This document shows, in pieces, positions 12,980 to 33,071 of a stretch of 64,000 nt of DNA; within the stretch, counting starts at the first letter, position 1, and each line of letters opens with the position of its first letter. The stretch covers positions 310,001 through 374,000 of the forward strand of contig NZ_JAOVZU010000004.1 of the NCBI RefSeq assembly GCF_025717005.1, written 5' to 3'. The position numbers were made by a program, and so were the translations under genes. The notes beneath the pieces are model-generated. The model did no database searches. It saw nothing but the letters and a program-made list of their open reading frames with translations, and was not told the DNA's origin. The stretch comes from Actinotalea endophytica (GTDB taxonomy: Bacteria; Actinomycetota; Actinomycetes; Actinomycetales; Cellulomonadaceae).

Positions 12980-13963
12980 TCAGGCGGACTCGCGGACCAC
13001 CAGCGTGAGCGTGTCCTCGCCGTTCGACACCGGCTCGGGTCCGTTGCCGAGCAGGAACTGCACGTACGCGGCGATCCGGGCGGCGAGGAGCTCGACGTTC
13101 TGGTCGATCGTGGTCAGCGGCGGGCTGGCGAGCGCGCCGAGCGGGACGTTGTCCACGCCGATCACCGCGAAGTCGTCCGGTGCGCTCAGGCCGAGCCGGT
13201 GCATGCCGGCGAGCAGCGCGAAGGCGACGTCGTCGTTGTAGGCGCAGATCGCGGTGATCGGCTCGGACCCGTCCTGCCAGGCGCGCACCGCTGCGGCGCC
13301 GGCGTCGGCGGACAGCTCGACGGGGACCACGACGGGCTGGGCCAGTCCGAGGTCCAGGCACGCCTCGCGGACACCCTCGAGCCGCAGCCTCAGGAACTCC
13401 GACACCCGGTCGTCCTGCGGGGCTGCGTAGCCGAGCACGCGGTGCCCCCGCGCAGCGAGGTGCTCCACCTGCAGCTGCCCGATGGTGTCCTGCGGCACGG
13501 TGAGCGCCCCGACGTCCGACGTGGGCGCCAGCACCGAGCTGGAGATCGGGATGCCGGACCGGCGGATCTCGTCGTGCTCCGCCTCGGTCAGCGCGGCGAC
13601 GTCGATGACGGCGATCGGCCGGAGCTGGCGGACCGCGTTGAGGGCCTGGCCGGGTTCCCGGATCCGGCGGGTGACCAGGGTCAGCCCGATGGCCTCGAGG
13701 TCGTCCGTGAGCTGCTCGATGATGTGCGCCACCGTGTGTCCGAACGGGATGTTCGGCAGCACCAGGAGCACGGCGTCCGACGTGCCCAGCCGCAACGCCC
13801 GCGCGGCCGCCGACGGTGCGTAGCCGAGCGCGGCGGCGGCGTCGAGCACGCGCCGGCGGGTCGGCTCGGAGATGCGTTGGTTGGGGTTGGCGTTGATCAC
13901 GTAGCTGACGGTGGCCTGGGAGACCCCGGCAGCCCGCGCGACGTCCTTCGCCGTGACGACCAT
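12980..13963 (-). CDS. LacI-family transcriptional regulator of the oligosaccharide operon
   Basis: A 327-residue repressor. Residues 4-25 form the LacI helix-turn-helix (TAKDVARAAGVSQATVSYVI), followed by the hinge helix with RRRVLDAAAALGYAPSAAARAL. The periplasmic-binding-like core ends with the usual VIGVDNVPLGALASPPLTTIDQ stretch. It lies just upstream of, and in the same orientation as, the importer-glycosidase genes. The shared CTGATACGTC element upstream of both genes makes it the probable autoregulated repressor of that operon. The inducer is likely an imported oligosaccharide or its hydrolysis product. Confidence 0.93.
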   Translation of the reverse strand: MVVTAKDVARAAGVSQATVSYVINANPNQRISEPTRRRVLDAAAALGYAPSAAARALRLGTSDAVLLVLPNIPFGHTVAHIIEQLTDDLEAIGLTLVTRRIREPGQALNAVRQLRPIAVIDVAALTEAEHDEIRRSGIPISSSVLAPTSDVGALTVPQDTIGQLQVEHLAARGHRVLGYAAPQDDRVSEFLRLRLEGVREACLDLGLAQPVVVPVELSADAGAAAVRAWQDGSEPITAICAYNDDVAFALLAGMHRLGLSAPDDFAVIGVDNVPLGALASPPLTTIDQNVELLAARIAAYVQFLLGNGPEPVSNGEDTLTLVVRESA

Positions 13964-13979
13964 GTGCCACCCCCGGTTG

Positions 13980-13990
13980 CTGATACGTCA
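13980..13990 (-). promoter_or_regulatory. LacI operator in front of its own gene
   Basis: CTGATACGTCA, containing the half-palindrome TGA-N4-TCA, lies 17 nt upstream of the LacI start codon. It matches the two repeats in the dppA promoter at 10 of 11 or 9 of 11 positions. This supports autoregulation. Its function is inferred from position and repetition only. Confidence 0.5.
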
Positions 13991-14197
13991 CAGTACCCCG
14001 CTGGGCGAACGCGGGGCACCCCGCGGGCGGGCTCACGGACGGACGCGCTCCGTGCCGAACGCGACGCTCAAGGCTAGTCGGCCGACGGTCGGGCGGTGAA
14101 CAGCGACGAAGCCCCTCCCCGAAGGCGAACCTGGCCCCGCTCGGGCACCTCGTCGCTCAGGCCGACGCCGCCGCACACCCGCACGCCGGACCGCAGG
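13991..14197. other. spacer between LacI gene and PTS operon end
   Basis: About 200 nt upstream of the LacI gene and downstream of the antiterminator stop. Apart from the operator described, I see only GC-rich sequence with short self-complementary stretches. No convincing open frame and no T-rich terminator tail were seen. Confidence 0.3.
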
Positions 14198-15103
14198 TCA
14201 CACCGTGCGCCGCCCCGACGCCCGGAGCCGCGCGACGTGCAGCGTGAGGTAGAGCGTCTCCTCGTCGGTCGCCGGCCAGCCGAACCGGTCCTGCAGCAGC
14301 CGGGCGATGCCGACCGCCGCGGCATGCTCCAGGGGCTGTGCGCTGCGGACCGCCTCGACCACGCCCGGAGGCGTCGCGGCCAGCTCCGCGCCGGTCCGGC
14401 CGCGCATGAACAGGTAGCGCAGGTGGGAGACGAACCGCGCGACGTCGAGCGAGTCCTCGTCGACCTCGACGCCGAGCTCCGTGGCGAGCTGACCGAGGAT
14501 CTCGGCGAGCACCTCGGTCATTCGGATCGTCCCGCCGATGTCGGTCGAGCCGAACTGGGCGTTGACGAAGTGCAGGGCCATCGGGACGGCCTCGGCATCG
14601 GGCAGCCGCACGCCCAGCCGCTCGTGGATGAGGTCCAGCGCACGCCGGCTGAACTCGACCTCCGCGGGGTACAGGTGCTGCACCTCCCAGCGCAGCTGGT
14701 AGTCGATCGCCGGCTGACCGTCCCGGGCCCGACGGACCGCGTACACGACGTGGTCGGCGAGCGGCAGGAACACGTGGTCGCTGATGTGGTCGCCGAGGGC
14801 CTCCCGGGCCTCGCGGAGCACCTCCTGGGCGGCCTCGATCTCCACGAGCGAGAGATCGGACAGCAGGGCCGCGAGCCGCTCGGCGCTCCCCCGTTCCTGG
14901 AGCACGAAGACCTTGTCCACCAGCGTCGGGTCGACCGGCTCGCCCGGGCGCACGTGGAAGCCGATCCCCCGACCCAGCAGCACCTGCTCGGCCCCGGTCG
15001 GGTCCGCCGCGAGGACGACGCTGTTGTTGAAGACGCGCTTCACGACGAAGCGCAGGTCGCCGCCGACGTCCGGCGGGCTGAGGTCGCTCCGCGCCGCGCT
15101 CAT
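14198..15103 (-). CDS. BglG/LicT-family transcriptional antiterminator (PRD protein)
   Basis: A 301-residue RNA-binding regulator. The N-terminal CAT domain (from RFVVKRVFNNSVVLA, about residues 18-75) binds a RAT hairpin in nascent mRNA. Two PTS-regulation domains follow (about 80-190 and 195-295), with conserved His residues in LGDHISDHVF, MALHFVNAQFG and YLTLHVARL. Phosphorylation by HPr and the IIB domain normally controls dimerisation. It is the last gene of the PTS operon, with its ATG overlapping the IIA stop by one base. A RAT-like sequence in the operon leader (19223-19253) is its obvious target, giving substrate-induced read-through. Confidence 0.92.
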   Translation of the reverse strand: MSAARSDLSPPDVGGDLRFVVKRVFNNSVVLAADPTGAEQVLLGRGIGFHVRPGEPVDPTLVDKVFVLQERGSAERLAALLSDLSLVEIEAAQEVLREAREALGDHISDHVFLPLADHVVYAVRRARDGQPAIDYQLRWEVQHLYPAEVEFSRRALDLIHERLGVRLPDAEAVPMALHFVNAQFGSTDIGGTIRMTEVLAEILGQLATELGVEVDEDSLDVARFVSHLRYLFMRGRTGAELAATPPGVVEAVRSAQPLEHAAAVGIARLLQDRFGWPATDEETLYLTLHVARLRASGRRTV

Positions 15104-19390: not shown

Positions 19391-19690
19391 TCACCCGTAG
19401 CGGTACTCGACGCCCATCGTCGGCCGCGGGTACGCCCAGGTCGCGACCGCGCGGCCACCCGCCACGATCCGGCAGGTGCCGCACTCGAGGCAGCCGGCGT
19501 AGTCGAACGTGGGTTCGCCGGCCTCGTCGACCTTGTACAGCGCGGCGGGGCAGACCCTGACGAGCTCGGCGAACTCGATCGGGTCGGGGTGCTCGGCGAT
19601 CGTGATGTGGGCGTGCTCCTCGTCCACCTCGTACCGGTTCCGGCCGAGGTACTCCTCGATGCTGACGGTGGTCGGACGCGGAGTGCTCAC
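19391..19690 (-). CDS. fixX: ferredoxin-like protein FixX
   Basis: A 99-residue ferredoxin-like protein. It has the VCPAALYK motif and then a GCLECGTCR cluster, and ends WAYPRPTMGVEYRYG, which closely matches my recollection of FixX of the E. coli carnitine system. It takes electrons from the FixAB flavoprotein via FixC and hands them on to CaiA. The GTG start (19690) overlaps the fixC stop by 4 bp (GTGA). It is the last gene of the cai/fix-like operon. The first cluster is reduced to a single visible Cys (VCP), as is usual for FixX, so it probably holds one Fe-S centre. Confidence 0.92.
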   Translation of the reverse strand: MSTPRPTTVSIEEYLGRNRYEVDEEHAHITIAEHPDPIEFAELVRVCPAALYKVDEAGEPTFDYAGCLECGTCRIVAGGRAVATWAYPRPTMGVEYRYG

Positions 19691-20973
19691 AGCGATCTCA
19701 TCCCCTTGACCAGGTCCTTCGCGACGTTCAGGTAGCCGGTGCGCTTGACGATCGGTGGGACCGCCTTCGCCAGCGGCCGCATCGGGGTGCCGTCGACCAG
19801 GAACAGCTCGCGCATCACGTCGCGCGCGAGGTCCGGGTAGTCGCGGAAGACCCGTGGCGTGCTCTCCATGAAGTGCGGGAACCGGCGCAGCGTGCGCAGG
19901 TCCCGCAGCACGAAGCTGTCCTCGAGCGCTGCCCGATAGCCCGCCAGGCCCTCGGCCGAGGTGTCCCCCGCGTCCAGCGCGGCGGCGGCGCTGCGTCCGG
20001 CCTGCTGCCCGGCCGCGAGCGCGAGGTCCATCCCGCGCACGGTGTACCCGGCGTTGACGCACATCAACGCGGACTCGCCGGCGAGCAGCACGCCGTCGCC
20101 GACCAGCGGCGGCAGCGCGTCGTAGCCGCCCTCGGCCACGAGGTGGCCGGAGTGCTCGACGACGGTCCCGCCCTCGAGGATCGGCGCGACGGCGGGGTGC
20201 CGCGTGAACTCCTCGAGCAGCTGGTAGATGGGTGTCTCGGACTCCATCAGGTCGCTGACCGTCGCGACGATGCCGACCGAGATCGTGTCCCGGTTCGTGT
20301 AGAGGAAGCCGCCGCCCACCCGTCCGTGGGTCGCGTCCCCGACGAAGAGCCAGGCCATGCCGTCGCCGTCGGCGCACATCGCCCGGTCGGAGATCACCGT
20401 CTCCGGGAGCTCGACGACGTGCTTGACGCCGACCGCGACCTGGTCCGGGCGGGGCCTGGGCGCGCCGACGGCCTGCGGCACGAGCAACGAGTTGACCCCG
20501 TCGCAGAGCAGCACGACGTCCGCGGTGATCTCGTCGTCACCGGCGCGGACACCGGTCACCCGGTCGCCGTCCTTGAGCAGCTCCTCGACCGCGATGCCGT
20601 TGATGTACTCGGCACCGGCGCCCTCGGCCTGCTCGGCCAGCCAGGGGTCGAACCGGGCACGCAGGACCGACCAGGACTCGTACCGCTCGTCGCGCATCAG
20701 CTCGTCGGTGACGTCGAGGGTCGTCGCGGAGTCGGCGGAGAGCAGGGAGACCCGCTCCCGCACGATCCGGCGCTCGAGCGGTGCGGACCCGGCGTCGTCC
20801 GGGAACAGCGCGCGCAGGGCGTGCAGGTAGAGCCGGCCGCCCGAGACGTTCTTCGCCCCGCTGGTGGTACCGCGCTCGATCACGAGCACGCTCTTGCCGG
20901 CCTTCGCCAGCTCGTAGGCGGCCGCCGGTCCGGCGCAGCCCGAGCCGACGACGATGGCGTCGAAGTCAGCCAC
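19687..20973 (-). CDS. fixC: electron-transfer flavoprotein-quinone oxidoreductase FixC
   Basis: A 428-residue FAD protein, the same length as E. coli FixC as I recall it. The N-terminal FAD-binding motif is VVGSGCAGPAAAYELAKAG (8-26). GLAYxNRDTISVGIV-like and ALMCVNAGYTVRGMDLALA blocks (the second near residue 310) are typical of ETF-QO relatives. It links ETF (FixAB) to FixX and possibly to the quinone pool. The gene is 48 nt downstream of an MFS gene and is coupled to fixX. The operon context with caiA/B/C homologues supports a role in reducing an enoyl-CoA. Confidence 0.92.
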   Translation of the reverse strand: MADFDAIVVGSGCAGPAAAYELAKAGKSVLVIERGTTSGAKNVSGGRLYLHALRALFPDDAGSAPLERRIVRERVSLLSADSATTLDVTDELMRDERYESWSVLRARFDPWLAEQAEGAGAEYINGIAVEELLKDGDRVTGVRAGDDEITADVVLLCDGVNSLLVPQAVGAPRPRPDQVAVGVKHVVELPETVISDRAMCADGDGMAWLFVGDATHGRVGGGFLYTNRDTISVGIVATVSDLMESETPIYQLLEEFTRHPAVAPILEGGTVVEHSGHLVAEGGYDALPPLVGDGVLLAGESALMCVNAGYTVRGMDLALAAGQQAGRSAAAALDAGDTSAEGLAGYRAALEDSFVLRDLRTLRRFPHFMESTPRVFRDYPDLARDVMRELFLVDGTPMRPLAKAVPPIVKRTGYLNVAKDLVKGMRSL

Positions 20974-20990
20974 GACGCTCCTTTCTGTGC

Positions 20991-21008
20991 GCAGGTCCGC
21001 TGACCTGC
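20991..21008 (-). other. small hairpin between MFS gene and fixC
   Basis: GCAGGTC (20991-20997) and GACCTGC (21002-21008) form a perfect 7-bp stem with a 4-nt loop in the 48-nt gap ahead of fixC. It is too weak to be called a terminator and could modulate mRNA decay. Confidence 0.3.
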
Positions 21009-21021
21009 TCTCGGTGGTGGG

Positions 21022-22356
21022 TCAGCCGGCGCGCAGCGAGCTCGCCTCGGCCAGCGTGAGCCCGCGGGTCTCGGGGGCCATCGCGATCGACAGGACCAGG
21101 CATGCGACCAGCAGCCCCGCGCCGACGAGCATGGTCGGGCCGATCCCGTAGGCGGCCAGGAAGAGCGGCAACCCGTAGGTCGAGACCACGACGCCGATCC
21201 GGCTGATCGCGATCGCCACCCCGACCGCGGTGGCACGCACCTCGGTCGGGAACATCTCGTTCGGGTAGAGCCACTGCAGGATCCCGGGACCGCCGGAGAA
21301 GAACGCGTAGACGCCGAACGCGAGGATGATCACGACGATGCTCGCGCCCGGCCAGATCCCGGGGACGAGCAGACCGAGCGCCATCAGGGCGAGCGAGCCG
21401 ATCAGCAGCGGGCGCCGGCCCATCGAGTTCAGCCAGTACATCGCGGGGACGGTCCCGATCAGGAAGAACAGGCTGACGGCCGCCTCGCCGAGCACCGACA
21501 GGCTCCCCTCGCCCAACCCGAACGCCGCGATGATCGACGGCCCGAAGGTGTACATCGCGTACATCGGGACCACCTGGCACAGGATCAGCAGCCCGAGGTA
21601 GACGATCCGGCCGAGGTAGCCCTGCCGGAACACCGCACCGAAGCCGGCCGGAGCAGGCTCCGGCGCGTCCAGCTCGACGTGCTCGCCGAAGACCTTCGCC
21701 ATGACCTCGCGGGCCTTGTCGACCTGCCCGCGCTGGGCGAGCCAGCGCGGGGACTCCGGGATGTCGTGCCGGCCGATGAGCAGAGCGACGCACGGCACCA
21801 GCGCGCTGCCGAGCATCCACCGCCACCCGCCGTCGACCGAGTACAGGGCGAAGCCCACGAAGGCGGCCGCCGTCGCGCCGAGGTACCAGGCCGCGGAGAC
21901 CACGCCCATCGCGATCGCCCGCTCGCTGCGCGGTGAGAACTCCGCGATCAGCGACGTCGCGATCGGGTAGTCCGCGCCGATGAAGAAGCCGAGCAGCAGC
22001 CGCAGCACGATCAGCTGCCACGCCGCGCCGACGAAGCACGCGGCGAGCGAGACCACGCCGATCGCCGACACGTCGAGGATGAACATGGTCCGCCGACCGA
22101 GCGCATCGGTGAGCCGACCCCCGACGAGCGAGCCGAAGAAGATGCCCGCGAGTGCCGCCGCACCGGTCGCCGCGGTCTGCGCGTCGGTCAGCCCGAGCGC
22201 CGGGGTGAGCTGCACGAGCGCGACGCCGATGATCGACAGCACGTACCCGTCGAGGAACGCCCCGCCGCTGGAGAAGAGGACGATCTTCTTCACGAAGCGG
22301 GTGGTCTGCGCGTCGTCGATGAGACGGCGCGTCGCCGCCCGGTCGGCTACTTCCAT
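21022..22356 (-). CDS. MFS transporter, sugar/organic-acid porter type (first of two in the cai/fix operon)
   Basis: A 444-residue, 12-helix major facilitator. Loop 2-3 reads GGRLTDALGRRTMFI and the central loop RHDIPESPRWLAQRGQVDKA, both signatures of the sugar/aromatic-acid porter groups. WLYPNEMFPTEVRATAVG precedes helix 11. In this operon it probably carries the unsaturated acid, carnitine-like substrate or product, standing in for CaiT (inference). The chosen ATG 22356 overlaps the MaoC-like gene by 10 bp. Upstream in-frame sequence is the end of that gene, so an earlier start is unlikely. Confidence 0.9.
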   Translation of the reverse strand: MEVADRAATRRLIDDAQTTRFVKKIVLFSSGGAFLDGYVLSIIGVALVQLTPALGLTDAQTAATGAAALAGIFFGSLVGGRLTDALGRRTMFILDVSAIGVVSLAACFVGAAWQLIVLRLLLGFFIGADYPIATSLIAEFSPRSERAIAMGVVSAAWYLGATAAAFVGFALYSVDGGWRWMLGSALVPCVALLIGRHDIPESPRWLAQRGQVDKAREVMAKVFGEHVELDAPEPAPAGFGAVFRQGYLGRIVYLGLLILCQVVPMYAMYTFGPSIIAAFGLGEGSLSVLGEAAVSLFFLIGTVPAMYWLNSMGRRPLLIGSLALMALGLLVPGIWPGASIVVIILAFGVYAFFSGGPGILQWLYPNEMFPTEVRATAVGVAIAISRIGVVVSTYGLPLFLAAYGIGPTMLVGAGLLVACLVLSIAMAPETRGLTLAEASSLRAG

Positions 22357-23219
22357 TCGATGACGCCCCAGTTGAGGTGCGGCTTGGCGGCCGGCGCGTC
22401 GGTGTCGACGAGGCGGAAGCGGGCCTCGTGGTCGCCGACCTGCCACAGCTGGGTGGACAGCGTCGAGCCGGGGTGCACGGGCGAGGTGATCCGGGTCTTG
22501 AACCGGGTCAGCCGCTCGGGCTCGCCCGGGATGAAGGTGCGGATGAAGTGGCGCATGACCACGCCCGCGTAGCTGATCGCGTGCAGGATGGGCCGCGGCT
22601 CGCCGTTCTCGGCGGCGTAGTCCCAGTCGATGTGCTGCGGGTGGAAGTCGCCGGACAGGCGGTAGATGAGGGCCTGGTTCTCCGGGATGGTCTCGACGAC
22701 CTCCGCGTCGGGCTCGCGGTCGGGCATCTCGACGACGTCCTTGGGCGCGGCCGGGCCGCCCCAGCCGCCGTCGTAGATCAGGCAGTCCCAGGACTCGTTG
22801 GTCAGCAGCAGGGTGCCGTCGGAGTCGTAGGTGTCGCCGATGTGCTGGGCGAGCAGGCCCTTGCCCTCGCCGCGGTCGTACAGCCCCTCGAGCCGGACCA
22901 TGGTCGAGACGCGGTCGCTGAGCCGGGTGATCGGCTGGTGGAACCGGAGGTCGAAGCCCCAGTGCAGCGAGCCGGCGTAGTTGTAGCCGTAGTCGATGGT
23001 CCGGGTGACCTCGGAGTCGACGATGAGCATCGCGCCGAACATCGGCAGCACCTTCAGGCTCGGGTCCCGCTCGTCGTGCTCGTTGAGGTAGACGAGGTCG
23101 TCCTTGCCGTCGATGCCGGCCCCGCAGCCGAGCGCGAACAGCTCGAGGTCGCGGAACGTGTAGTCCCGCACGAACGGGCCGAAGGTCTGGCCCACCATCT
23201 CGGTCTGGATCCTGCCCAT
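22347..23219 (-). CDS. MaoC-like (hot-dog) enoyl-CoA hydratase
   Basis: A 290-residue double hot-dog protein. The hydratase-2 active-site motif is visible as RLSGDFHPQHIDWDYA (roughly residues 204-219), with the catalytic Asp and His in SGDxxPxH. PRPILHAISYAGVVMRH follows. The N-terminal half is the non-catalytic FAS1_DH-like domain. Such enzymes add water to trans-2-enoyl-CoA. Lying in a cai/fix operon that lacks a crotonase-type CaiD, it may hydrate the enoyl-CoA intermediate (inference). The ATG overlaps nothing upstream; it follows caiC by 44 nt. Confidence 0.88.
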   Translation of the reverse strand: MGRIQTEMVGQTFGPFVRDYTFRDLELFALGCGAGIDGKDDLVYLNEHDERDPSLKVLPMFGAMLIVDSEVTRTIDYGYNYAGSLHWGFDLRFHQPITRLSDRVSTMVRLEGLYDRGEGKGLLAQHIGDTYDSDGTLLLTNESWDCLIYDGGWGGPAAPKDVVEMPDREPDAEVVETIPENQALIYRLSGDFHPQHIDWDYAAENGEPRPILHAISYAGVVMRHFIRTFIPGEPERLTRFKTRITSPVHPGSTLSTQLWQVGDHEARFRLVDTDAPAAKPHLNWGVIEWK

Positions 23220-23263
23220 CTCGTTGTCTTTCCCTTCATCGGGTCCGCAGCCGTGCGGACGGT

Positions 23264-24841
23264 TCAGTGCAGGAGCCGCTTCTCGATCTTCATCGACTCG
23301 GTCCGCGGGAAGTCGTCGACGATCTCGACGAGCTCGGGGACCTTGTACGGCGCGAGCCGCTCGCGGCAGTGCTGGGTGAGGTCCGTGGGGCTGAGCGCGG
23401 CGCCCGGGTCCAGCCGGACGAACGCCTTGACCGCGCGGTCGCGCACCGGGTCGGGGACCCCGACGACGGCGGCCTCGGCGACGAGCGGGTGCGACGTGAG
23501 GACGCACTCGACCTCGGTGGCCGAGACGTTCTCGCCCGCCCGCTTGATCACGTTGATGCTGCGGTCGACGAAGTAGAACCAGCCGTCCTCGTCCCGGTAG
23601 CCCTGGTCGTGCGTGCGCAGCCAGCCGTCGGCGCCGAGCGCCGCGGCGGTGGCAGCGGGGTCGTCGTGGTACCCGAGCATGAGCGAACGCCCGGGCACCC
23701 CCTTGATCCGGAACTCCCCCACCCGGCCGGCGGGCAGCTCGCGCCCGGCCTCGTCGAAGATCCCGACCTCGTAGCCGAGCCCGGCACGCCCCACCGAGGG
23801 CCACCGCCGCTCGCCCTGCGGCGGGTCGGTGACGGCCCACCCGATCGACTCGGTCGAGCCGTAGCTGTTCAGCAGCCGGATCCGGAACCGGCGCTCGAAC
23901 TCGGCCTTCTCGGCGTCGGACAGCGGCATGAAGTAGAGCGCCTCGCGCACCTCGTGCACGCCGTCGTCCGGTGAGGGCGGCTGGAGCATCAGGGTGCGCG
24001 CCATCATGGCGATGAGCTGGACGACCGTGGCGCGCTCGGCACGGACCTGCTGCCAGAAGTGGCTGGCCGAGTAGCGGTCCACCACGATCAGCGCGGCCCC
24101 GGCGACGAGCACCGGCGTCAGCGCGGCGAGCTGGAAGTTCGAGTGGCAGGACGGCATGGTCGTGAGCAGCCGGTCGTCGCTGCGCAGCGAGGTCTGCCAC
24201 ACGCCGTAGTGGCCGGAGAACACGACGTTCGCGTGCGTGACCATGACGCCCTTCGGCGCCGCCGTGGTGCCCGACGTGTAGAGCAGCTCGAGCACGGTCT
24301 CGTCGCTGATCTGCGCATCGGTCACCGGCGCGGCCGGCTGACGGCGGCACAGCTCGGCGTAGGACTGGACGCCCGGCTCCGCGGTCCTGGAGTCGTGCGC
24401 ACTCTCGTGCGACACGTCGCCCCCGGCGAGCACCCGCAGCTCCGTCAGCCCCTCCTCACGGAGTGCGAGGTGGTCGCCCACCCGGGTGGCGTCGACCACG
24501 GCCCACCGTGCCCCGCACGCCCGGTAGGCGCGCAGCAGCTCAGCCGGGGTCGCGCCGAGCCCGGTCGGCACCGCGATCGCACCGATCTCGGCCAGGCCGA
24601 ACAGCGCGGAGAGCACCTCGGACCCGTTGCCGAGCTGGAGGATCACCGTGTCGCCCGGCCCGACCCCGACGGCGCGGAACGCGTGAGCCGCCTGGTGCAC
24701 CAGCGCCGCGAACTGGGCATAGCTGAACTCGCTGCGGCGCCCGGCCGGACCGAGGTGGACCAGGAACGGACGGTCGCCGAAGCGACGGCACGCCGTGTCC
24801 CACAGGTGTGTCGTCGTCTGACCCGTCGCGATGTCGGCCAC
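23264..24841 (-). CDS. caiC: CaiC-like acyl-CoA ligase (crotonobetaine/carnitine-CoA ligase family)
   Basis: A 525-residue ANL-superfamily AMP-forming ligase. The P-loop is LLYTSGTTAAPKGVMVTH (around 170-187), then NSYGSTESIGW and GWLRTHDQGYRDEDGWFYFVDR, with the C-terminal Lys in RTESMKIEKRLL. Many blocks resemble recalled E. coli CaiC (SARAFW/SASHFW, MMxRTLMxQPPS, RRWPSxGR, IKRxGENVS). It would activate a carboxylate such as a trimethylammonio acid to its CoA thioester using ATP. The start is GTG at 24841, 22 nt after the ETF alpha stop. Confidence 0.9.
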   Translation of the reverse strand: MADIATGQTTTHLWDTACRRFGDRPFLVHLGPAGRRSEFSYAQFAALVHQAAHAFRAVGVGPGDTVILQLGNGSEVLSALFGLAEIGAIAVPTGLGATPAELLRAYRACGARWAVVDATRVGDHLALREEGLTELRVLAGGDVSHESAHDSRTAEPGVQSYAELCRRQPAAPVTDAQISDETVLELLYTSGTTAAPKGVMVTHANVVFSGHYGVWQTSLRSDDRLLTTMPSCHSNFQLAALTPVLVAGAALIVVDRYSASHFWQQVRAERATVVQLIAMMARTLMLQPPSPDDGVHEVREALYFMPLSDAEKAEFERRFRIRLLNSYGSTESIGWAVTDPPQGERRWPSVGRAGLGYEVGIFDEAGRELPAGRVGEFRIKGVPGRSLMLGYHDDPAATAAALGADGWLRTHDQGYRDEDGWFYFVDRSINVIKRAGENVSATEVECVLTSHPLVAEAAVVGVPDPVRDRAVKAFVRLDPGAALSPTDLTQHCRERLAPYKVPELVEIVDDFPRTESMKIEKRLLH

Positions 24842-24863
24842 CGCCCGCTCCGTCGCCGCTGCC

Positions 24864-25754
24864 TCAGAGCGCGTCGACCAGCGCGGGCAGCACCTGGTAC
24901 AGGTCGCCGACCACGCCGAAGTCGGCCTGCTGGAAGATCGGGGCGTTCTTGTCCTTGTTGATCGCGACGATCACCTTGGCGTGGTTGACGCCGACCAGGT
25001 GCTGGATCTGGCCCGAGATCCCGATCGCGAGGTAGACGTCGGGCTTGATCGTCGCCCCGGACACGCCGAGGTAGCGCTCCGCGGGCATCCAGCCGACGCC
25101 CTCCGAGATGGGCCGGCTGCAGGCCAGCTCGGCGCCGAGCCGGTTCGCGACGGCGCGTGCGAGGTCGAGGTCCGCCTCGGCGGCGAAGCCCCGCCCGACA
25201 CCGACGACGCGCTTGGCGGCGGTCAGATCGACCTGCTCGCCGCCCTTGGGGCGGGTCTCGACCAGCGTGAGCCCGGCGGTCGGCGTGGCGTCGACAGGTT
25301 CGACCGCACCCTGCCCGGCGACGTCCGACGGCGTCACCGCGCCGGGTTCGAGCACCAGCACCGCGACGGGTGCGGTGATCTCGTCGGTGGCCACCGCGAG
25401 GCCGCCGTAGGCCAGCCGCGTGACCACCAGCGGAGCGGTCGACACGACGCCGGCGACGTTGGTCGGGCCGACGCCGAGGTGGGCGGCGACCTGGCCGGCG
25501 AGCAGCCGGCTGCGCACGTCGCCCGCGAAGGCGACGACCGTGGCCCCGCGCGCCGCGAGCAGTGCGGCGACCGGCTGCGCGTAGGCCTCGACCAGGGCGC
25601 CGGGGGCCGCGTCGACGGTGAGCGTGAGGTCCGCGTCGGCCAGGCCACCGGCGCCGACGCTGACCGCCACGACCCGCTCGGCGAGCGCGCGGGCCGAGCG
25701 GGCCAGGGCGTTGCCGCCGTCCAGGTCGTGGACGACGATCCAGGCTTCAGTCAT
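24864..25754 (-). CDS. fixB: electron transfer flavoprotein alpha subunit FixB
   Basis: A 296-residue ETF alpha protein. The C-terminal FAD domain shows GRGFAAEADLDLARAVANRLGAE, SRPISEGVGWMPAERYLGVSGATIKPDVYLAIGISG and a QHLVGVNHAKVIVAINKDKNAPIF block, the family hallmark. With FixA it carries electrons to FixC/FixX and, in caiTABCDE-type systems, to CaiA; bifurcation is possible. It is 12 nt after fixA and 22 nt before caiC. Confidence 0.94.
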   Translation of the reverse strand: MTEAWIVVHDLDGGNALARSARALAERVVAVSVGAGGLADADLTLTVDAAPGALVEAYAQPVAALLAARGATVVAFAGDVRSRLLAGQVAAHLGVGPTNVAGVVSTAPLVVTRLAYGGLAVATDEITAPVAVLVLEPGAVTPSDVAGQGAVEPVDATPTAGLTLVETRPKGGEQVDLTAAKRVVGVGRGFAAEADLDLARAVANRLGAELACSRPISEGVGWMPAERYLGVSGATIKPDVYLAIGISGQIQHLVGVNHAKVIVAINKDKNAPIFQQADFGVVGDLYQVLPALVDAL

Positions 25755-25766
25755 GATTCCGTGCTC

Positions 25767-26510
25767 CTAGAGGGTCGTGAGGAACTGGGCGAGCTGCTGC
25801 GCGGTCTCGGCGGGGTCGCCCTCGACGACGACGCGTCCGCGGTCGACCTGCTCGGGGGCGAGCAACGACGCGACCCGGGCCGAGGCGCCGGGCATCGCGG
25901 CGGCGACCTCGGAGACCGGCTTCTTGCCCGCGGCGAGGATGTCCTTCATCCCGGCGATGCGTGGGGTGTTGATGCCCGAGGTGAGGCTCAGCACCGCGGG
26001 CAACGGCACGTCGACGACCTGCACCCCGTCCTCGAGCAGCCGCTCGACCCGCACGTGGTCCCCGTCGACCGTGATGGCGTCGACCTGGTTCAGCGTCGGC
26101 CGGCCGAGCAGCGCGCCGAGCTGGTTGCCGACCTGCTGGGCGTAGCGGTCGGAGCTGCCGGCACCGAGCAGCACCAGGTCGCAGCCGCCGAGCTCGCCGA
26201 CCGCCGCGGCGAGCGCGCTCGCGGTCTGGAAGCTGTCCGCGTCGGGGTCACCGGGAACGACGACCAGGCTGTCCAGCCCGCGCGAGAGCACGTCCTTGCG
26301 CAGCTTCGAGCCGGACCACCCCTCGCTGCCGACGCTGAGGCCGATCACCTCGCCGCCGACCTGGTCGGCGACCTGGCGGGCGGCCTCGACGGCGTTGAGG
26401 TCGTAGCTGCCGACCTTCCACTGCGCACGGGACAGGTCCAGGGTGCGGTCGGGCTTGACCGCGATGTCCGAGTCCTCCGGTGCGGCCTTGACGCACGCGA
26501 CGATTCGCAT
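25767..26510 (-). CDS. fixA: electron transfer flavoprotein beta subunit FixA
   Basis: A 247-residue ETF beta protein. The N-terminus MRIVACVKAAPEDSDI resembles other FixA proteins. AVEAARQVADQVGGEVIGLSVG is followed by the nucleotide-binding DLVLLGAGSSDRYAQQVGNQLGALLGRP stretch. It pairs with FixB. It lies 21 nt downstream of caiB and 12 nt upstream of fixB, so the operon interleaves cai and fix genes instead of keeping them as two divergent operons as in E. coli. Confidence 0.94.
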   Translation of the reverse strand: MRIVACVKAAPEDSDIAVKPDRTLDLSRAQWKVGSYDLNAVEAARQVADQVGGEVIGLSVGSEGWSGSKLRKDVLSRGLDSLVVVPGDPDADSFQTASALAAAVGELGGCDLVLLGAGSSDRYAQQVGNQLGALLGRPTLNQVDAITVDGDHVRVERLLEDGVQVVDVPLPAVLSLTSGINTPRIAGMKDILAAGKKPVSEVAAAMPGASARVASLLAPEQVDRGRVVVEGDPAETAQQLAQFLTTL

Positions 26511-26531
26511 CGAGTTGTCCTCTCTCGGGGT

Positions 26532-27746
26532 CTAGGCGGGTCGCTTGACGACGCCGGCGGCGACGAGGCGGTCGACCTCGTCGGGCGAGTAGCCGAGCTT
26601 GGCGAGCACGTCGACCGTGTCGTGCCCCTGGTCCGGCATCGGCCGCCAGACCTGCCCGGGGTGCTGGTCGAAGCGCGGGAACACACCCAGCCCCTTGAAG
26701 GTCTCCCCGTCCGTGGTCGGCCAGTCCTGCCAGACCCCGCGGGCCTCGAGGTGCTTCTCGGCGACGAGGTCGGAGAACTCCATGACCTTCTGGGCCGCGA
26801 TCCGGTGCGCGGAGAAGTCGGCCTCGACGTCGGCGACGGTGCGGGTCGCGAGATGGGCCTCGAGGTGCTCCTCGATCTGCCGGGCGTGGGAGCTGGACAG
26901 CCAGAGCGCGCTGCAGTCCTCGGGGTAGTCCCCCGTGCCCCACAGGTGCCCGAGCCCGATCGTCTCGAGGAGGTACTTGTTCTGCGGGACGCCGTACACG
27001 CACAGACCGATGAAGCCGTCCGCGCAGCGGTACTCGCCGATCGCGCAGAGGTTCTGGTTGCGCGCGCCGGGCCTCGGCCAGCTGATCCCGGCGTTGAGGT
27101 AGTCGACCAGGTAGTACTGGCCGATGGACAGCAGGGTCTCGAACATGGCGAGGTCGATCGACTCGCCCTTGCCGGTCCGGCCCGTCTTGTGCAGCGCGGC
27201 GAGCGTCGCGCCGACGATCATCAGCGAGTTGAAGTAGTCGCCGGCGTACGGCCCGGGGTTCATCGGCTGGTCCGGCGTGCCGTTCTGGCTCATGTAGCCC
27301 GAGTAGGCCATCACGGTGAGGTCGTAGGCGGCCCGCGTCACCATCTCCGGCACACCGGTCTGGCCGAAGCCGGAGACGTGCACGATGACGAGCTCGGGGT
27401 TGGCCTCACGGAGCACCTCGTCGGTCAGCCCGCGCTTGGACCAGGTGCCGCCCTTGCTCGACTCGATGAACACGTCGGCGTCGGCGAGCATCCGCAGCAG
27501 GACCTCCCGCCCCTCGGCGGAGAAGAAGTCGAGCGCCACGGACCGCTGGTTGCGGCGCTCGGCCTGCTTGATCCACGGGGTGTCGCGGATGGTGTCACCC
27601 GCGCCGGTGTTCTCCAGCCAGGTCACGTCGGCGCCCCAGTCGGCCATCAGGCTGGCGGCCTTGGGCACCGCGAGCTCCATCGCGGAATAGACGACCTTGA
27701 CGTCGTCAAGAACACCGAAGGACGGCTTCTCGGTTGCGATATCCAT
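26532..27746 (-). CDS. caiB: CaiB-like class III CoA-transferase
   Basis: A 404-residue family III CoA transferase, one residue off the E. coli CaiB length as I recall it. Asp170 in YAGDYF aligns with the catalytic Asp169 of CaiB. Shared blocks include SKGGTWSKRGLTDEVL, VHVSGFGQTG, KTGRTGKGESIDLAM and the C-terminal HPGQVWRPMPDQGHDT. It would move CoA between the product and incoming substrate acids. I start at ATG 27746, because TGAGGA lies nine bases upstream. The ATG at 27755 directly abuts that site and would leave it no spacing. Confidence 0.93.
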   Translation of the reverse strand: MDIATEKPSFGVLDDVKVVYSAMELAVPKAASLMADWGADVTWLENTGAGDTIRDTPWIKQAERRNQRSVALDFFSAEGREVLLRMLADADVFIESSKGGTWSKRGLTDEVLREANPELVIVHVSGFGQTGVPEMVTRAAYDLTVMAYSGYMSQNGTPDQPMNPGPYAGDYFNSLMIVGATLAALHKTGRTGKGESIDLAMFETLLSIGQYYLVDYLNAGISWPRPGARNQNLCAIGEYRCADGFIGLCVYGVPQNKYLLETIGLGHLWGTGDYPEDCSALWLSSSHARQIEEHLEAHLATRTVADVEADFSAHRIAAQKVMEFSDLVAEKHLEARGVWQDWPTTDGETFKGLGVFPRFDQHPGQVWRPMPDQGHDTVDVLAKLGYSPDEVDRLVAAGVVKRPA

Positions 27747-27758
27747 GGGATTCATTCC

Positions 27759-28895
27759 TCAATTCGCGTACGCGCGCAGCACGCCCTTGGCCACGGTGAG
27801 AATCATCATTTCGTCGGTGCCGCCGCTGATCCGGTCCACCCGCAGGTCACGCCAGATCCGCTGGATCCGGTGGTCGCCGGCGACCGAGATCCCGCCCATG
27901 ACCTGCATCGCGTCGTCCACGACGGCGAACGCGGCGTTGACGCAGTAGTACTTGCACATCGCCGCCTGGGCGGACGTCATTCCGTCGTTGTCGTAGTGCC
28001 ACGCGGCCTCGTAGAGCATGTTCTTCATCGCGTCGAGCTTGATCGCCATCTCGCAGAACTTGAGCTGGTTGAGCTGGAACCGCCCGATCGGCTTGCCGAA
28101 CTGCACCCGGGCGTTGGCATAGCGCGCGGCGTCCTCGAACGCGGACAGCGCCACGGCGTAGTCGCTCAGGCCCACCAGGAACCGCTCGAAGTCGAAGTCC
28201 TTGACGCCACGGCGGAACCCGTTGCCCTCGGTGCCGAACATGTCGTCCTCGGTCAGCTCGACGTCCTCGAGGTAGACGTCGGAGCAGCTGTCCATCCGCA
28301 GGCCGAGCTTGTCCAGCGGCTCGATCCGCACACCGGGCAGGCTCATGTCGAGGAACCACTCGGTGAAGACCTCGGGGTCGTCGGCGTTGCGCGCCATGAC
28401 CACCAGGTACGGCACGTGCGCGGACGACGTGATGAACGTCTTGTGCCCGTTGAGGTAGACCTTCCCGTCCCGGCGCGTGTACGTGGTCTGCAGGCTGCCG
28501 ACGTCGGAGCCCGCGCCGGGCTCGGTGCACGCGGAGTTCCAGATCTGCTTGCCGGTCCCGACGTACGACAGCACCGTCTCGACCTGGTGGGGCGTGCCCT
28601 CGCGCAGGATCGTGTCGAAGCACGGGAGCTGGTAGAGCACATAGGTCGGGGCGCCCCAGCGCCCGAGCTCCTCGTAGACGGCGGTCAGGGTGACCAGGCC
28701 GAGGTCGAGGCCGCCGTGCTCCTCGGGCAGCATGATCAGGTCGAAGCCGAGGTCGCACAGGTCCTTGACCCAGCGCTCGGGGTAGGTGTGGGTCCGGTCG
28801 CACTCCGCGAAGTACGCCTCCCAGTTCTCCCTGGCCATCAGGTCTCGGACGTTCTCGACGAGCAGCTCCTGCTCGTCGCTGAGGCGGAAGTCCAT
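27759..28895 (-). CDS. caiA: CaiA-like acyl-CoA dehydrogenase (crotonobetainyl-CoA reductase)
   Basis: A 378-residue flavoenzyme that resembles recalled E. coli CaiA from the first residues (MDFxLxDEQEL, [33 protein letters not shown]) to the end ([15 protein letters not shown]). CaiA reduces crotonobetainyl-CoA to gamma-butyrobetainyl-CoA with electrons from FixABCX. At the position of the catalytic Glu of medium-chain dehydrogenases this protein has Gly (SGGTDEM), as CaiA does. The stop codon overlaps the caiB ribosome site. The closeness to CaiA suggests a small betaine-like or similar enoyl-CoA. Confidence 0.94.
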
Positions 28896-28911
28896 CTGCG
28901 GGTTCTCCTTG

Positions 28912-29972
28912 TCAGTGGGTGGTCTCGAAGGCTCGCCGCAGGAAGGCCCCGCCGCGCTGCAGCGCGACGACGGCGTCGTCGAGCATCCGGGAGTGGTGCA
29001 GGAAGCCGTGCAGCACGCCGTCGAACACGTCGTGCACGTGGCGCACGCCGCGCACGGCGAGCATCTGGGCGAGCGCAGCCGTGTCGTCGCGCAGCGGGTC
29101 GAGCTCGGCTGCGGCGAGGTAGCAGGGCGGGACCCCGCTGCCGAGGTCGGCGCCCAGGCAGTCCAGGTACGGGCTTCGGGCGTCGGCCGGATCGGCCAGG
29201 TAGCACTCGCTGTAGTACTCGAGGTCGGCCTCGGTCAGCCCGTCCCACGGTCCGCCGAGCAGCCGTCGGCTCGCCGAGTCCCGCAGGCCGTACAGGCCGT
29301 AGTAGAGCGCCAGCGCCGTCACCGCGACGGGCGGCCGGCCCTCGGCCGCCTCGTCGCGCAGCAGCAGCGTCGTGGCCAGCGCCATGTTCGCGCCCCCGCT
29401 GTCGCCGGCGAGCGCCAGTCGGCTGCCGTCGACCGGGAGGCCGCCCGCGCCGTCGAGCAGGTGCCGCGCGACCGCGGCGCACTGCGCGACGGCGACCGGG
29501 CGCGGGGCGGCCCCCCCGCCCCCGCCCGCGGGGGGGGCGCCCCCCCCCCCCCCCCCCCCCCCGCGACCGGGAACTTCGCCTCGGGCGACAGCGCGTAGTC
29601 GACGCCCACGACGGCCGCGCCCGACTCGTGGGCGAGCCCACGCATGATCCGGTCGTGGGTGTTGAGGTCGCCGACCACCCAGCCACCGCCGTGGACGTAG
29701 ACGACGACCGGGAGGCCGTCGGCGTCCACCGGCAGGTGGCAGCGGATCGCCACGTCACCGTGCGGGGTCGCGACGGTGGCGTCGATCGTGCGCGCCATCG
29801 TCGGACCGCCCTCGTTCCAGAACCGGCGCTCCAGGGCGTAGGCCGTCCGCAGCTCGGCGGTGCCGGCGTCGGTCGCGTAGGCGTCGGGTGCGAGCTCGGC
29901 CGACGTGCTCAGCACGGCCCGCATCTGGTCGGAGATCCGGTCGAGGACCGGCAGCTTGGTGACGTTGCTCAT
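28912..29972 (-). pseudogene. HSL-type alpha/beta-hydrolase (esterase), frame broken by a 71-nt insert
   Basis: Two frames together make one hormone-sensitive-lipase-like esterase. The N-terminal frame (29972 down to about 29560) has the oxyanion motif HGGGW (94-98) and DYALSPEAKFPVA. The C-terminal frame (ending at 28912) has GDSGGAN with the nucleophile Ser, RDDTAALAQ with the Asp, and LHGFLHH with the His. Between them lies a G/C homopolymer-rich stretch. Removing 71 nt (29501-29571) restores a 990-nt, 329-residue open frame reading KFPVAVAQCAAVARHLL, with the Ser at 168. The product may cleave an ester precursor such as an acyl-carnitine (inference). The break is likely a sequencing or assembly artefact and not real decay. 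Confidence 0.85.
29501..29571. repeat. 71-nt low-complexity insert with 9-bp duplication
   Basis: The plus strand has GCGACCGGG at 29492-29500 and again at 29563-29571. Between them are runs of C7, G8 and an uninterrupted C23 (29540-29562). Nothing like it occurs elsewhere in the window. The direct repeat and the exact restoration of the hydrolase frame on its removal point to a mis-assembly or polymerase artefact, or less likely a recent slippage insertion. Confidence 0.8.
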
Positions 29973-30002
29973 GGTTCGGTCCGTTGCGTTCCGCGGGCCG
30001 GT

Positions 30003-31328
30003 TCAGACCGTCGCCGTGACGCTCTCGCGCTCCGCCACCTGGTCGCGGGACCGCGTCCTGCGCAGGTAGAAGAACAGCGCGAGCGAGGCGATCGCGGCGA
30101 GCACGGCCGAGCCGACCAGGATCATGAAGATCTGCTGGTACGCACCGGCCGCGACGTTCCCGTCGGCATCGGTCTGCGCGTCGAGGATCGAACCGAACCA
30201 GGTGCTCGAGAAGGTGTCCGGCAGGAAGCCGATGATCGAGAGCAGACCGGTGGCCGCACCGAAGTAGGTCAGCGGCACCTTGCCCTCGGTGAGCTGGGCG
30301 GAGACCACGCCGAACGAGCCGTTGGCGATGAACCCGAGCACCACGACCAGCGTGCAGGCCAGGACCACGATGCCCGCGGAGGCAGGCAGCGCCATCATCG
30401 TGAGCAGCGCGACGCAGAACAGGACGGAGCCGGCGGCGATCACGACGGACGGCCGGAACTTGTTCGCGATCCAGCCGAACGCGGGGCCGGACAGCAGCGT
30501 GATCCCGTAGTTGCGGATGTTCGCGACGATCGTGGCGGCGGCGAGCGAGACGCCCAGGACACCGGTCATGTACGGGGTCGTGTAGGTCACGCCGGTGTAG
30601 AAGAAGTAGACGAAGAACAGCGAGACCGCGGCGATCCAGACCACCGGGTCACGCAGCGCCCGGCCGAACTCCGCGAGGCTGAAGGTGCTCTCGCCCTTGA
30701 TCTCACCGGCGAACTTCGGGATGAACAGCCACGACAGGATGCCCAGGACCAGGATCAGACCGCCGAGGAAGAACAGGTAGATCGAGACGCCCAGACCGAG
30801 GTTCTCGCCGACCGCGGCGACGATCCAGGTCGAGATCAGGCCGATCACCAGGCCGGCCACGCCGTAGATGCCGTACGAGATGCCGATCCGCTTCGGGTAC
30901 TCGTCCTCCTTGGAGACCAGGCGGACGAGCTTGTAGCGCACGCCCCACCAGATCAGGATCGTCGTGACGCCCATCAGGATGAACACCGCGTACAGCACCG
31001 CGAGGCTCGGCAGCATCGCGTAGACGAAGGTCAGCAGGGCCGTCGAGACGAACCCGACCGACGAGAGCGTCCGCATCCGGACCTTGTCCGCGAGGATGCC
31101 GGACGGCAGGTAGCAGATCAGCGCGGTGATCGCGTAGGCGCTGAAGACTGCGCCGAGCTGGGTGTTCGTGACGCCGAGCGCCTCGCGCAGCGGGTCGTAG
31201 AACACGGCCTTGAGGTAGGCGGGCGCGTAGATGATCGAGCTGCCCATGCTCGCCAGTGCGAGCAGGAACCAACGCCGACCTGAGCTCAGGTCCGCGTAGC
31301 TCTTCTCGTCACCCAATGAGTTCACCAT
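30003..31328 (-). CDS. MFS transporter (second of the cai/fix operon, first gene)
   Basis: A 441-residue, 12-helix major facilitator starting MVNSLGDEKSYADLSSGRRW. It has few of the sugar-porter signatures and looks more like the oxalate/formate or phosphate-ester antiporter groups. It contains YLPSGILADKVRMRTL after helix 2 and repeated aromatic-rich helices such as FFVYFFYTGVTYTTPYMTG. Its place as first gene of the operon, behind the LuxR-shared intergenic region, suggests it is a main substrate carrier or substrate/product antiporter. AGGGAG lies seven bases before ATG 31328. The substrate is unknown. Confidence 0.88.
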   Translation of the reverse strand: MVNSLGDEKSYADLSSGRRWFLLALASMGSSIIYAPAYLKAVFYDPLREALGVTNTQLGAVFSAYAITALICYLPSGILADKVRMRTLSSVGFVSTALLTFVYAMLPSLAVLYAVFILMGVTTILIWWGVRYKLVRLVSKEDEYPKRIGISYGIYGVAGLVIGLISTWIVAAVGENLGLGVSIYLFFLGGLILVLGILSWLFIPKFAGEIKGESTFSLAEFGRALRDPVVWIAAVSLFFVYFFYTGVTYTTPYMTGVLGVSLAAATIVANIRNYGITLLSGPAFGWIANKFRPSVVIAAGSVLFCVALLTMMALPASAGIVVLACTLVVVLGFIANGSFGVVSAQLTEGKVPLTYFGAATGLLSIIGFLPDTFSSTWFGSILDAQTDADGNVAAGAYQQIFMILVGSAVLAAIASLALFFYLRRTRSRDQVAERESVTATV

Positions 31329-31628: not shown

Positions 31629-33071
31629 ATGACCACCAGTGGGCTTCTGGCCCAAGAAGCGCCCGCATCGACGCGGATCGTCCTCGGCCCGAGGCTGAAG
31701 TACCTCGGCCTCACCCTTGTCCTGGCGTGGCACTACTGCCTGTGGTTCGTCCCGGGCTCGTTCCCGTCGCAGTTCCTGCTCGACGACCGGATCACGTTCG
31801 CCTGGCTGATCGCCCTGACCGCCGGCGGCGTGGTCCCGCTGCTGCTGGCGTGGTGGCTGGGTCGCCGGCGCCACCTCGAGGCGAGCGCGCCGCTGGTCTG
31901 GTCGGTCTCGGTGCTCGGCAGCGCCGCGACCGTGGCCCTGACCACGGTCGGGATGAGCTCGGCGTCACTGGCACCCGCGTACCTGTCGGCCGTCGTCATC
32001 GGCGCGAGCAGCGGGGTGCTCTGGGTGCTGTGGGGCGAGGGCCTGGCCCTGCACCGGGCGCGGTTCACGCTCGGTCGCGTCGCGCCCGCCTACGGCGTGG
32101 TCATGCTGGTCGTGGTCGGGGGGGTCTACCTGCTGCCCGGCTGGGGCGCGCCGGCCGTCGACGCACTCCTGCCGCTCGCCTCGGCGTTCCTGCTGCGCTC
32201 GCACGTCCGCGCGCTGCCGGACGGGCAGTACCCGCGGCTCCTGCCGGTCAAGGCCGCGGCCGTCGGCATCCGGACGATCGCGATCGTCGCCGGCATCTCG
32301 TTCGCCGCAGCGGCGGTCTCCTACTACACCGTCGCGATCGTGCCCTGGGAGGCGCTCGGGCACGTGCAGGACTACTTCACCTACGGGATCCTGCTGGGCG
32401 CCGCGATGTTCCTGCTCCTCGCGGTGGTCCAGGCCGTGCCGCTGTGGCACCAGTCGACCTACGGCGCCTACCCGTGGCTCCTGCTGTTCAGCATCGCCGC
32501 GTGCGTCCTGTACCTGTCCGACAGCGGGTTCGAGGCGCCCGCCTTCCTCCTGGCGCTGGCCGTCTCCTCGCTGTTCGAGATCCTGCTCACGATGTACATG
32601 GGCGTCCTCACCCGGCGCGGGTACGTCCCCCCGGCCACCGCGTTCGCGCTGTCCGGCGGGGCGATCCGGCTCGGGATCCTGGTCGGCAACGGCACCGCCC
32701 TGACCTTCGAGCGGGTGCCGGGGCTCGAGGACACCCTCGTGCGCCCGACCTTCGCGCTGCTGGTGGTGATGCTCACGGCGCTGCTGATCTCGATGGTGCG
32801 CCAGGAGTACGCGATCGACGCCCTGACGCGCAACCCGCACTCGGACTCCGAGCTCGCGCTCGTGGTCGAGTCGGTGGCGGAGGAGTTCCGGCTGTCCGGG
32901 CGCGAGCGCGAGATCCTCGAGCTCATCGGCCACGGCTACACGGCGTCGGGCGTGGCCGAGACGCTGGTGATCTCGCCGCACACGGTGAACACCCACGTCC
33001 AGCACATCTACGCGAAGCTCGGCATCCACAAGCGCTCGGAGCTGATCAGCTACCTGCACCGGCGGGGGTAG
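31629..33071 (+). CDS. membrane-anchored LuxR-family transcriptional regulator
   Basis: A 480-residue protein of two parts. Residues ~25-385 contain roughly ten to twelve hydrophobic segments (for example YLGLTLVLAWHYCLWFV and IAIVAGISFAAAAVSYYTVAIV). Residues ~412-480 are a LuxR/GerE helix-turn-helix: LSGREREILELIGHGYTASG, then ISPHTVNTHVQHIYAKLGIHKRSELI. Proteins of this architecture abound in Eggerthellaceae beside specialised reductase operons. It is divergent from the cai/fix-like operon and is its probable substrate-sensing activator, in the place of CaiF (inference). The ribosome site is GGAGAGGGAG. Confidence 0.9.
   Translation: MTTSGLLAQEAPASTRIVLGPRLKYLGLTLVLAWHYCLWFVPGSFPSQFLLDDRITFAWLIALTAGGVVPLLLAWWLGRRRHLEASAPLVWSVSVLGSAATVALTTVGMSSASLAPAYLSAVVIGASSGVLWVLWGEGLALHRARFTLGRVAPAYGVVMLVVVGGVYLLPGWGAPAVDALLPLASAFLLRSHVRALPDGQYPRLLPVKAAAVGIRTIAIVAGISFAAAAVSYYTVAIVPWEALGHVQDYFTYGILLGAAMFLLLAVVQAVPLWHQSTYGAYPWLLLFSIAACVLYLSDSGFEAPAFLLALAVSSLFEILLTMYMGVLTRRGYVPPATAFALSGGAIRLGILVGNGTALTFERVPGLEDTLVRPTFALLVVMLTALLISMVRQEYAIDALTRNPHSDSELALVVESVAEEFRLSGREREILELIGHGYTASGVAETLVISPHTVNTHVQHIYAKLGIHKRSELISYLHRRG

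Follow-up and report, generated by a model that had tools for sequence, protein, structure and literature searches.

The gene cluster analysed here has its closest described relatives in the caiTABCDE and fixABCX-yaaU gene sets of Escherichia coli and in a cluster reported in 2024 from Propionibacterium freudenreichii. The latter report describes a run from a major facilitator superfamily (MFS) transporter gene to fixX that comprises an alpha/beta hydrolase gene, caiABC, a second MFS gene, an enoyl-coenzyme A (CoA) hydratase gene and fixABCX, and it states that the cluster lacks CaiD and CaiT (PMC11007987). It also relates that strains with the first MFS gene and the hydrolase gene deplete octanoyl- and decanoylcarnitine and show raised levels of carnitine and putative gamma-butyrobetaine. 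An earlier paper had used caiABC and fixABCX to propose that P. freudenreichii and P. acnes convert carnitine to gamma-butyrobetaine (PMC7650540). Here we examine a 64 kb stretch of the Actinotalea endophytica genome (4.25 Mb, 20 contigs), hereafter the window, in which eleven minus-strand genes running from position 31328 down to 19391 encode, in this order, MFS1, an esterase, CaiA, CaiB, FixA, FixB, CaiC, a MaoC protein, MFS2, FixC and FixX. Judging from sequence, we assign a probability of roughly 85% to the reading that this operon reduces carnitine to gamma-butyrobetaine and is of the P. freudenreichii type.

Identity of the reductase and the transferase

Genes were named from Pfam and NCBIfam profile matches, with the curated NCBIfam cut-offs applied, and were compared by BLAST with the cai/fix and ydi regions of E. 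coli K-12. The predicted flavoprotein CaiA (27759..28895) scores 695 bits on the crotonobetainyl-CoA dehydrogenase family NF002885, above the cut-off of 540, against 199 bits on the acryloyl-CoA reductase family, and is 67% identical to E. coli CaiA. A tree of CaiA had been proposed in an earlier note on this DNA, made from the letters alone, as a check on whether the protein groups with crotonobetaine reductases. In the resulting maximum-likelihood tree, 71 CaiA rows, E. coli CaiA included, form one clade with support 100/99, and the YdiO-type proteins, among them the window genome's own, form its sister clade; outside both lie three acyl-CoA dehydrogenases with solved structures and two further dehydrogenases encoded by the window genome (L011, L012). 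The tree used 84 of 107 rows (L013, L052, the second rows of L083 and L101 and 19 duplicates were left out), holds only CaiA rows from MaoC-bearing loci or loci of the window's family together with outgroups, and carries a program warning that long outgroup branches meet. Window CaiA is 44% identical to E. coli YdiO. We reject an ordinary beta-oxidation operon on account of the position of CaiA apart from the other dehydrogenases in the tree.

At two alignment positions that we take to be the catalytic-base positions of acyl-CoA dehydrogenases, 101 of the 107 rows, including E. coli CaiA, have a glutamate at the isovaleryl-CoA-dehydrogenase-type position (window Glu237) and a glycine at the usual one (Gly358); the six exceptions are three solved chains, two distant matches and one gapped row. 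The pair also occurs in the YdiO rows, L011 and L012, and is therefore compatible with CaiA function and not specific to it. The neighbouring class III transferase CaiB (26532..27755) scores 641 bits on the L-carnitine CoA-transferase family NF002914, above its cut-off of 413, and keeps an aspartate at the position of E. coli Asp169, presumably the catalytic residue. The tree and these two family cut-offs support the carnitine-type enoyl-CoA reduction that had been predicted, and carnitine-type chemistry is well supported for the operon as a whole.

Comparison with described systems

The eleven genes, their common strand and their order were borne out as first described, together with the absence of CaiT, CaiD and CaiE from the operon, which E. 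coli queries confirmed; the operon does not hold the canonical six-gene set caiTABCDE. Close resemblance to the E. coli proteins had been claimed for CaiA, CaiB, CaiC and FixX and stands for CaiA, whereas CaiB (43%), CaiC (42%) and FixX (53%) are weaker matches; FixC (48%), FixA (44%) and FixB (42%) lie in a similar span. The CaiC-like betaine:CoA ligase is encoded at 23264..24841, and FixABCX are all encoded inside the operon together with the cai genes: FixA, an electron transfer flavoprotein (ETF) beta-type subunit (25767..26510; PF01012), FixB, the ETF alpha-type subunit (24864..25754; PF00766 and PF01012), FixC, a flavoprotein resembling ETF:quinone oxidoreductase (19687..20973), and the ferredoxin-like FixX (19391..19690).

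Homologues of CaiA, CaiB, CaiC, FixA, FixB, FixC, FixX and YaaU of the E. coli system are all in the window. Unlike E. coli, with its two divergent gene runs, the window has a single run, lacks CaiT, CaiD and CaiE, and adds MFS1, the esterase and MaoC. The cai loci of Shewanella and Ferrimonas resemble the window in that their clusters include MaoC and usually a homologue of the esterase; they differ in keeping CaiT and CaiD and, in most cases, CaiE. The E. coli ydiO-ydiQRST-fadK region encodes a related dehydrogenase, yet YdiO belongs to a separate clade, and a YdiO-type operon is present at another site in the window genome.

The nearest layout is that of P. freudenreichii, with an MFS gene and a hydrolase gene beside caiABC, a hydratase gene and a second MFS gene before the terminal fix genes, and neither CaiT nor CaiD; the window differs in having fixAB between caiB and caiC and a LuxR-type gene beside the operon. 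MaoC occurs in 14 of 198 genomes of the family of a Propionibacteriaceae genome, and one of these, a 2,649,166-base contig, is taken as P. freudenreichii on the strength of a methylmalonyl-CoA mutase stretch that agrees with 1req over all 519 residues. This genome holds the same cluster, with window proteins 40-80% identical to their counterparts (MFS1 57%, CaiA 61%, CaiB 61%, CaiC 44%, MaoC 80%). The suggestion that ester precursors enter the pathway gains support from the acylcarnitine loss described for P. freudenreichii (PMC11007987). Its companion, that the operon represents a new version of the system, fails: a novel kind of system is ruled out since the same cluster is in print, and caiABC with fixABCX earlier still (PMC11007987, PMC7650540). 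An open-access literature search combining caiA, caiB, actinobacteria and crotonobetaine gave no match. The present analysis contributes the assignment of the hydratase to a family with its own motif, the homology of MFS2 to YaaU, and a spread over five phyla with intermediate forms.

Distribution of the cluster

CaiA above cut-off was found in 14 of 221 genomes searched in the window's family, the window genome included. Thirteen of these carry MaoC in the cluster, so the gene order is not due to chance; the contig of the fourteenth (6 kb) stops within FixB. The esterase was found in 12 of the 13 other family loci (exception, L048), and, among the loci that reach both gene pairs, some share the window's placement of fixAB between caiB and caiC and others have fixAB with fixCX after MFS2. 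Among 394 genomes drawn from the class, MaoC (E 1e-60 or better) was found in the window's own genome alone, a sample that shows only the patchiness of the gene.

A wider scan picked 77 loci from the genome collection by two short MaoC peptide patterns, with homologues called at 60 bits. The number is a lower bound, as the P. freudenreichii locus was not returned, and 57 of the loci are at least 20 kb long, some others being short contigs; because they were selected by MaoC, the frequency of CaiA without MaoC is not readable from them. They comprise 53 loci from Actinomycetota, 17 from Pseudomonadota, 4 from Bacillota, 2 from Campylobacterota and 1 from Dormiibacterota, the last from a metagenome bin that may be misassigned. 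Genes for CaiA (71 loci), CaiB (71) and CaiC (75) accompany MaoC, all three being present in each of the 57 loci of at least 20 kb, and one of them adjoins MaoC in 75 of the 77. The other two loci have none of the three; they are contigs only 3.0 and 4.3 kb long, which carry MFS2-FixC and CaiD-CaiE-esterase.

CaiT, CaiD and CaiE are absent from all 53 Actinomycetota loci. CaiD occurs in 14 of the 77 loci, all of Pseudomonadota, CaiE in 16, and CaiT in 21 (16 Pseudomonadota, 3 Bacillota, 2 Campylobacterota). Intermediate forms are found: CaiT and MaoC without CaiD occur in three of the four Bacillota loci (arranged CaiT-CaiA-CaiB-FixABCX-CaiC-MaoC-YaaU), in both Campylobacterota loci, in Endozoicomonas and in Enterobacillus tribolii, and CaiT, CaiD and MaoC occur together in Shewanella and Ferrimonas, followed in most by CaiE and an esterase homologue. 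Operons that combine CaiT, or CaiT and CaiD, with MaoC thus exist in other phyla.

The MaoC protein at the place of CaiD

The product of 22347..23219 (PF01575, PF22622) is a MaoC protein of the hydratase-2 double-hotdog kind, with 3khp and 1s9c as the nearest solved structures by sequence, and is our candidate for the crotonobetainyl-CoA hydratase (carnitinyl-CoA dehydratase). The motif SGDxHPQH, which keeps the motif aspartate and histidine, is present in 73 of 79 MaoC stretches of cai loci, and the three relatives aligned with the window protein all read SGDxNPLH. Of the remaining six stretches, three have a change at the serine only (QGD or NGD) and one is truncated; the last two belong to second copies in which the motif is missing. 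These second MaoC-like copies (L120, L122) are 44-46% identical and lie in the same loci as an HPQH copy.

The possibility that CaiT or CaiD had simply been missed elsewhere in the window genome was pursued and is ruled out: the profile of the BCCT transporter family (PF02028) has no match genome-wide, and the best crotonase in the genome is 36% identical to CaiD, against 84% in a Shewanella control; CaiE was sought in the operon only. The same comparison in nine genomes whose locus has MaoC and not CaiD, that of the window among them, likewise gave no crotonase more than 40% identical to E. coli CaiD. The locus of Enterobacillus tribolii is arranged as in E. coli, with CaiT-A-B-C-MaoC and a divergent fixABCX-yaaU, and has MaoC at the place of CaiD; no crotonase more than 35% identical to CaiD was found in that genome. 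The initial proposal that MaoC stands where CaiD would be is supported by this locus, and its position and the absence of CaiD support a role for MaoC as the hydratase/dehydratase that would replace CaiD. No report linking MaoC with crotonobetainyl-CoA was found in the open-access literature searched.

The two MFS carriers

Both MFS genes had been seen as standing in for CaiT, a view that can be kept for one of them. MFS2 (21022..22356; PF00083, Sugar_tr superfamily) shares 52% identity with the compared stretch of E. coli YaaU, and yaaU follows fixX in K-12; since MFS2 has a counterpart beside fixX in the E. coli set, it is by homology a YaaU relative and not a replacement for CaiT, which rules out the reading of both carriers as substitutes. 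MFS1 (30003..31328; PF07690) remains the only candidate substitute and may import carnitine and acylcarnitines; acylcarnitine loss has been associated with the position-matched gene of the published cluster. YaaU/MFS2 is present in 47 of 53 Actinomycetota and all four Bacillota MaoC loci, and we found no report linking yaaU with carnitine in the open-access literature searched.

Evidence against the assignment and alternative explanations

Several observations weigh against a carnitine reduction operon of the P. freudenreichii type. The best of 107 families matched by CaiC is NF005947, at 598 bits under a cut-off of 651; FixC falls below the cut-offs of both NF007450, a sister model (462 against 466 bits), and the FixC model NF007542 (432 against 610); and FixX reaches 103 bits on NF011993 against a cut-off of 166. 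All four Fix proteins have slightly higher bit scores against YdiQ (43% identity to FixA), YdiR (48% to FixB), YdiS (47% to FixC) and YdiT (51% to FixX) than against FixABCX, so that the Fix proteins alone give no pointer to carnitine. In the published yogurt work, gamma-butyrobetaine carries the label putative, and the connection drawn is one of association among strains (PMC11007987). Two further points, an esterase frame that is not open in the window sequence and the stereochemistry expected of MaoC, lead to alternative explanations of their own.

The alpha/beta hydrolase gene (HSL-type esterase, candidate acylcarnitine esterase; 28912..29972) is divided between two frames, with halves at 29319-29972, which carries the PF07859 match, and 28912-29385. 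It is possible, though unlikely, that the operon is decayed or only partly used here, with a truly broken esterase and use of free carnitine or crotonobetaine alone; this concerns one gene and would be compatible with the carnitine assignment. The frame break itself speaks for decay, as do the CaiB stop, the MFS2 frame break and the esterase stop and frame break in the genome taken as P. freudenreichii, and the 2024 report describes decay of the cluster in many P. freudenreichii isolates (PMC11007987). Against this, the remaining ten genes are open and the change of frame falls around 29540-29562, at a run of 23 C (plus strand) in G/C-only sequence that is the sole homopolymer of at least nine bases in the window. 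The esterase frame is open in the five relatives compared, and among 162 loci examined a G or C run longer than seven was found only at the window site (L009) and in L112/L057 (13 bases, taken as one contig). The break is probably a sequencing or assembly fault.

The usual product of MaoC-type hydratases (hydratase 2) is D-3-hydroxyacyl-CoA, whereas L-carnitine matches an L-3-hydroxyacyl group in space, since the nitrogen alters the naming priority. It follows that MaoC must either bind its substrate differently or serve D-carnitine. If the latter held, MaoC would not stand in for CaiD but would be a D-carnitinyl-CoA dehydratase that admits D-carnitine or D-acylcarnitine to the pathway, and pairs of CaiD and MaoC would racemise carnitine through crotonobetainyl-CoA. 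We regard this as improbable. The fold is that of hydratase 2, whose known members are D-specific, and 14 of the 17 Pseudomonadota loci have CaiD as well as MaoC, which pure redundancy leaves unexplained; yet MaoC is without CaiD in 45 of the 57 loci of at least 20 kb, none of the nine genomes mentioned above has a crotonase more than 40% identical to E. coli CaiD, D-carnitine is uncommon as a natural substrate, and the shift from NPLH to HPQH may alter the orientation of the substrate. Moreover, E. coli CaiD itself is reported to have a part in carnitine racemase activity (PMC2131755), so that racemisation requires no MaoC. A broader proposal, in which the HPQH proteins are a second, unrelated carnitinyl-CoA dehydration family acting on the D isomer, with CaiD-MaoC pairs as the racemase, and E. 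coli YaaU is at the same time an unrecognised betaine carrier, we consider a long shot when both parts are taken jointly.

A last alternative is reduction of another enoyl-CoA, for instance of a hydroxycinnamate freed by the esterase from plant esters, by analogy with the caffeyl-CoA reductase of Acetobacterium; Cellulomonadaceae degrade plant polymers, MFS2 has a sub-cut-off match to an aromatic acid symporter family (147 bits against 419), and the caffeyl-CoA reductase subunit CarC is distantly related to CaiA. We reject it as very improbable given that CaiA reaches 695 bits on the crotonobetainyl family and no more than 199 on acryloyl-CoA reductase and 156 against CarC, that CaiB is above the carnitine transferase cut-off, and that the same gene set is tied to acylcarnitines in P. 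freudenreichii (PMC11007987).

Neighbouring genes and further loci

Divergent from the operon, a plus-strand gene at 31629..33071 (PF00196) encodes a LuxR-type regulator with an N-terminal part that is hydrophobic by eye and may regulate the operon; homologues of it (at least 60 bits) lie in 10 of the 53 Actinomycetota MaoC loci. Most Actinomycetaceae loci have a gap of 0.8-2.1 kb before FixA, which in L079 (12358-13655) is occupied by genes for a metallo-beta-lactamase-fold hydrolase and a TetR-type regulator. The MFS1-esterase-CaiA stretch stands twice in tandem in L083, possibly an assembly effect. In the Endozoicomonas locus (L119), FixB and FixC are separated by a further membrane protein of 532 residues (12994-14592) that by eye resembles a carrier, and FixB appears as two matches.

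The window genome has a second reductive operon on contig 15, at about 101-120 kb (L058 605-19899), which encodes a YdiO-type dehydrogenase (657 bits, cut-off 537), FixABCX, a CaiC-like ligase, a crotonase, an NADH:flavin oxidoreductase (Oxidored_FMN), two CaiB-type transferases and two MFS proteins; L059 and L060 share genes with it in the same order at the level of BLAST. With fourteen ETF-domain matches, or about seven ETF pairs in 4.25 Mb, the genome is rich in flavoprotein electron transfer.

Discussion

Under the carnitine assignment, MFS1 would import carnitine and O-acylcarnitines, and the esterase would free carnitine from the latter, as the metabolomics of P. freudenreichii strains suggests. 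By homology to the E. coli enzymes, CaiC would prime the cycle and CaiB recycle the CoA thioesters. MaoC, from its position and the absence of CaiD, would dehydrate carnitinyl-CoA to crotonobetainyl-CoA in place of CaiD, and CaiA would reduce crotonobetainyl-CoA to gamma-butyrobetainyl-CoA with electrons delivered, by homology, through FixAB and FixCX. CaiB would then move CoA onto fresh carnitine, gamma-butyrobetaine may leave through MFS1 or the YaaU-like MFS2, and the pathway as a whole may act as an electron sink under low oxygen.

Gamma-butyrobetaine made by gut microbes feeds trimethylamine formation. The gammaBMGC database screen counts only genomes with all six caiTABCDE genes (PMC11857547). 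The full set is present in none of the 53 Actinomycetota and none of the four Bacillota MaoC loci, so a six-gene rule would overlook carriers among Schaalia, Actinomyces and Varibaculum, provided that their genomes do not encode the absent genes at other sites. In E. coli, YaaU is annotated as no more than a putative transporter; the conservation of its gene neighbourhood now points to a likely pathway for it. For the missing hydratase, MaoC is a candidate that can be put to the test, and the presence of its motif next to CaiA provides a simple marker.

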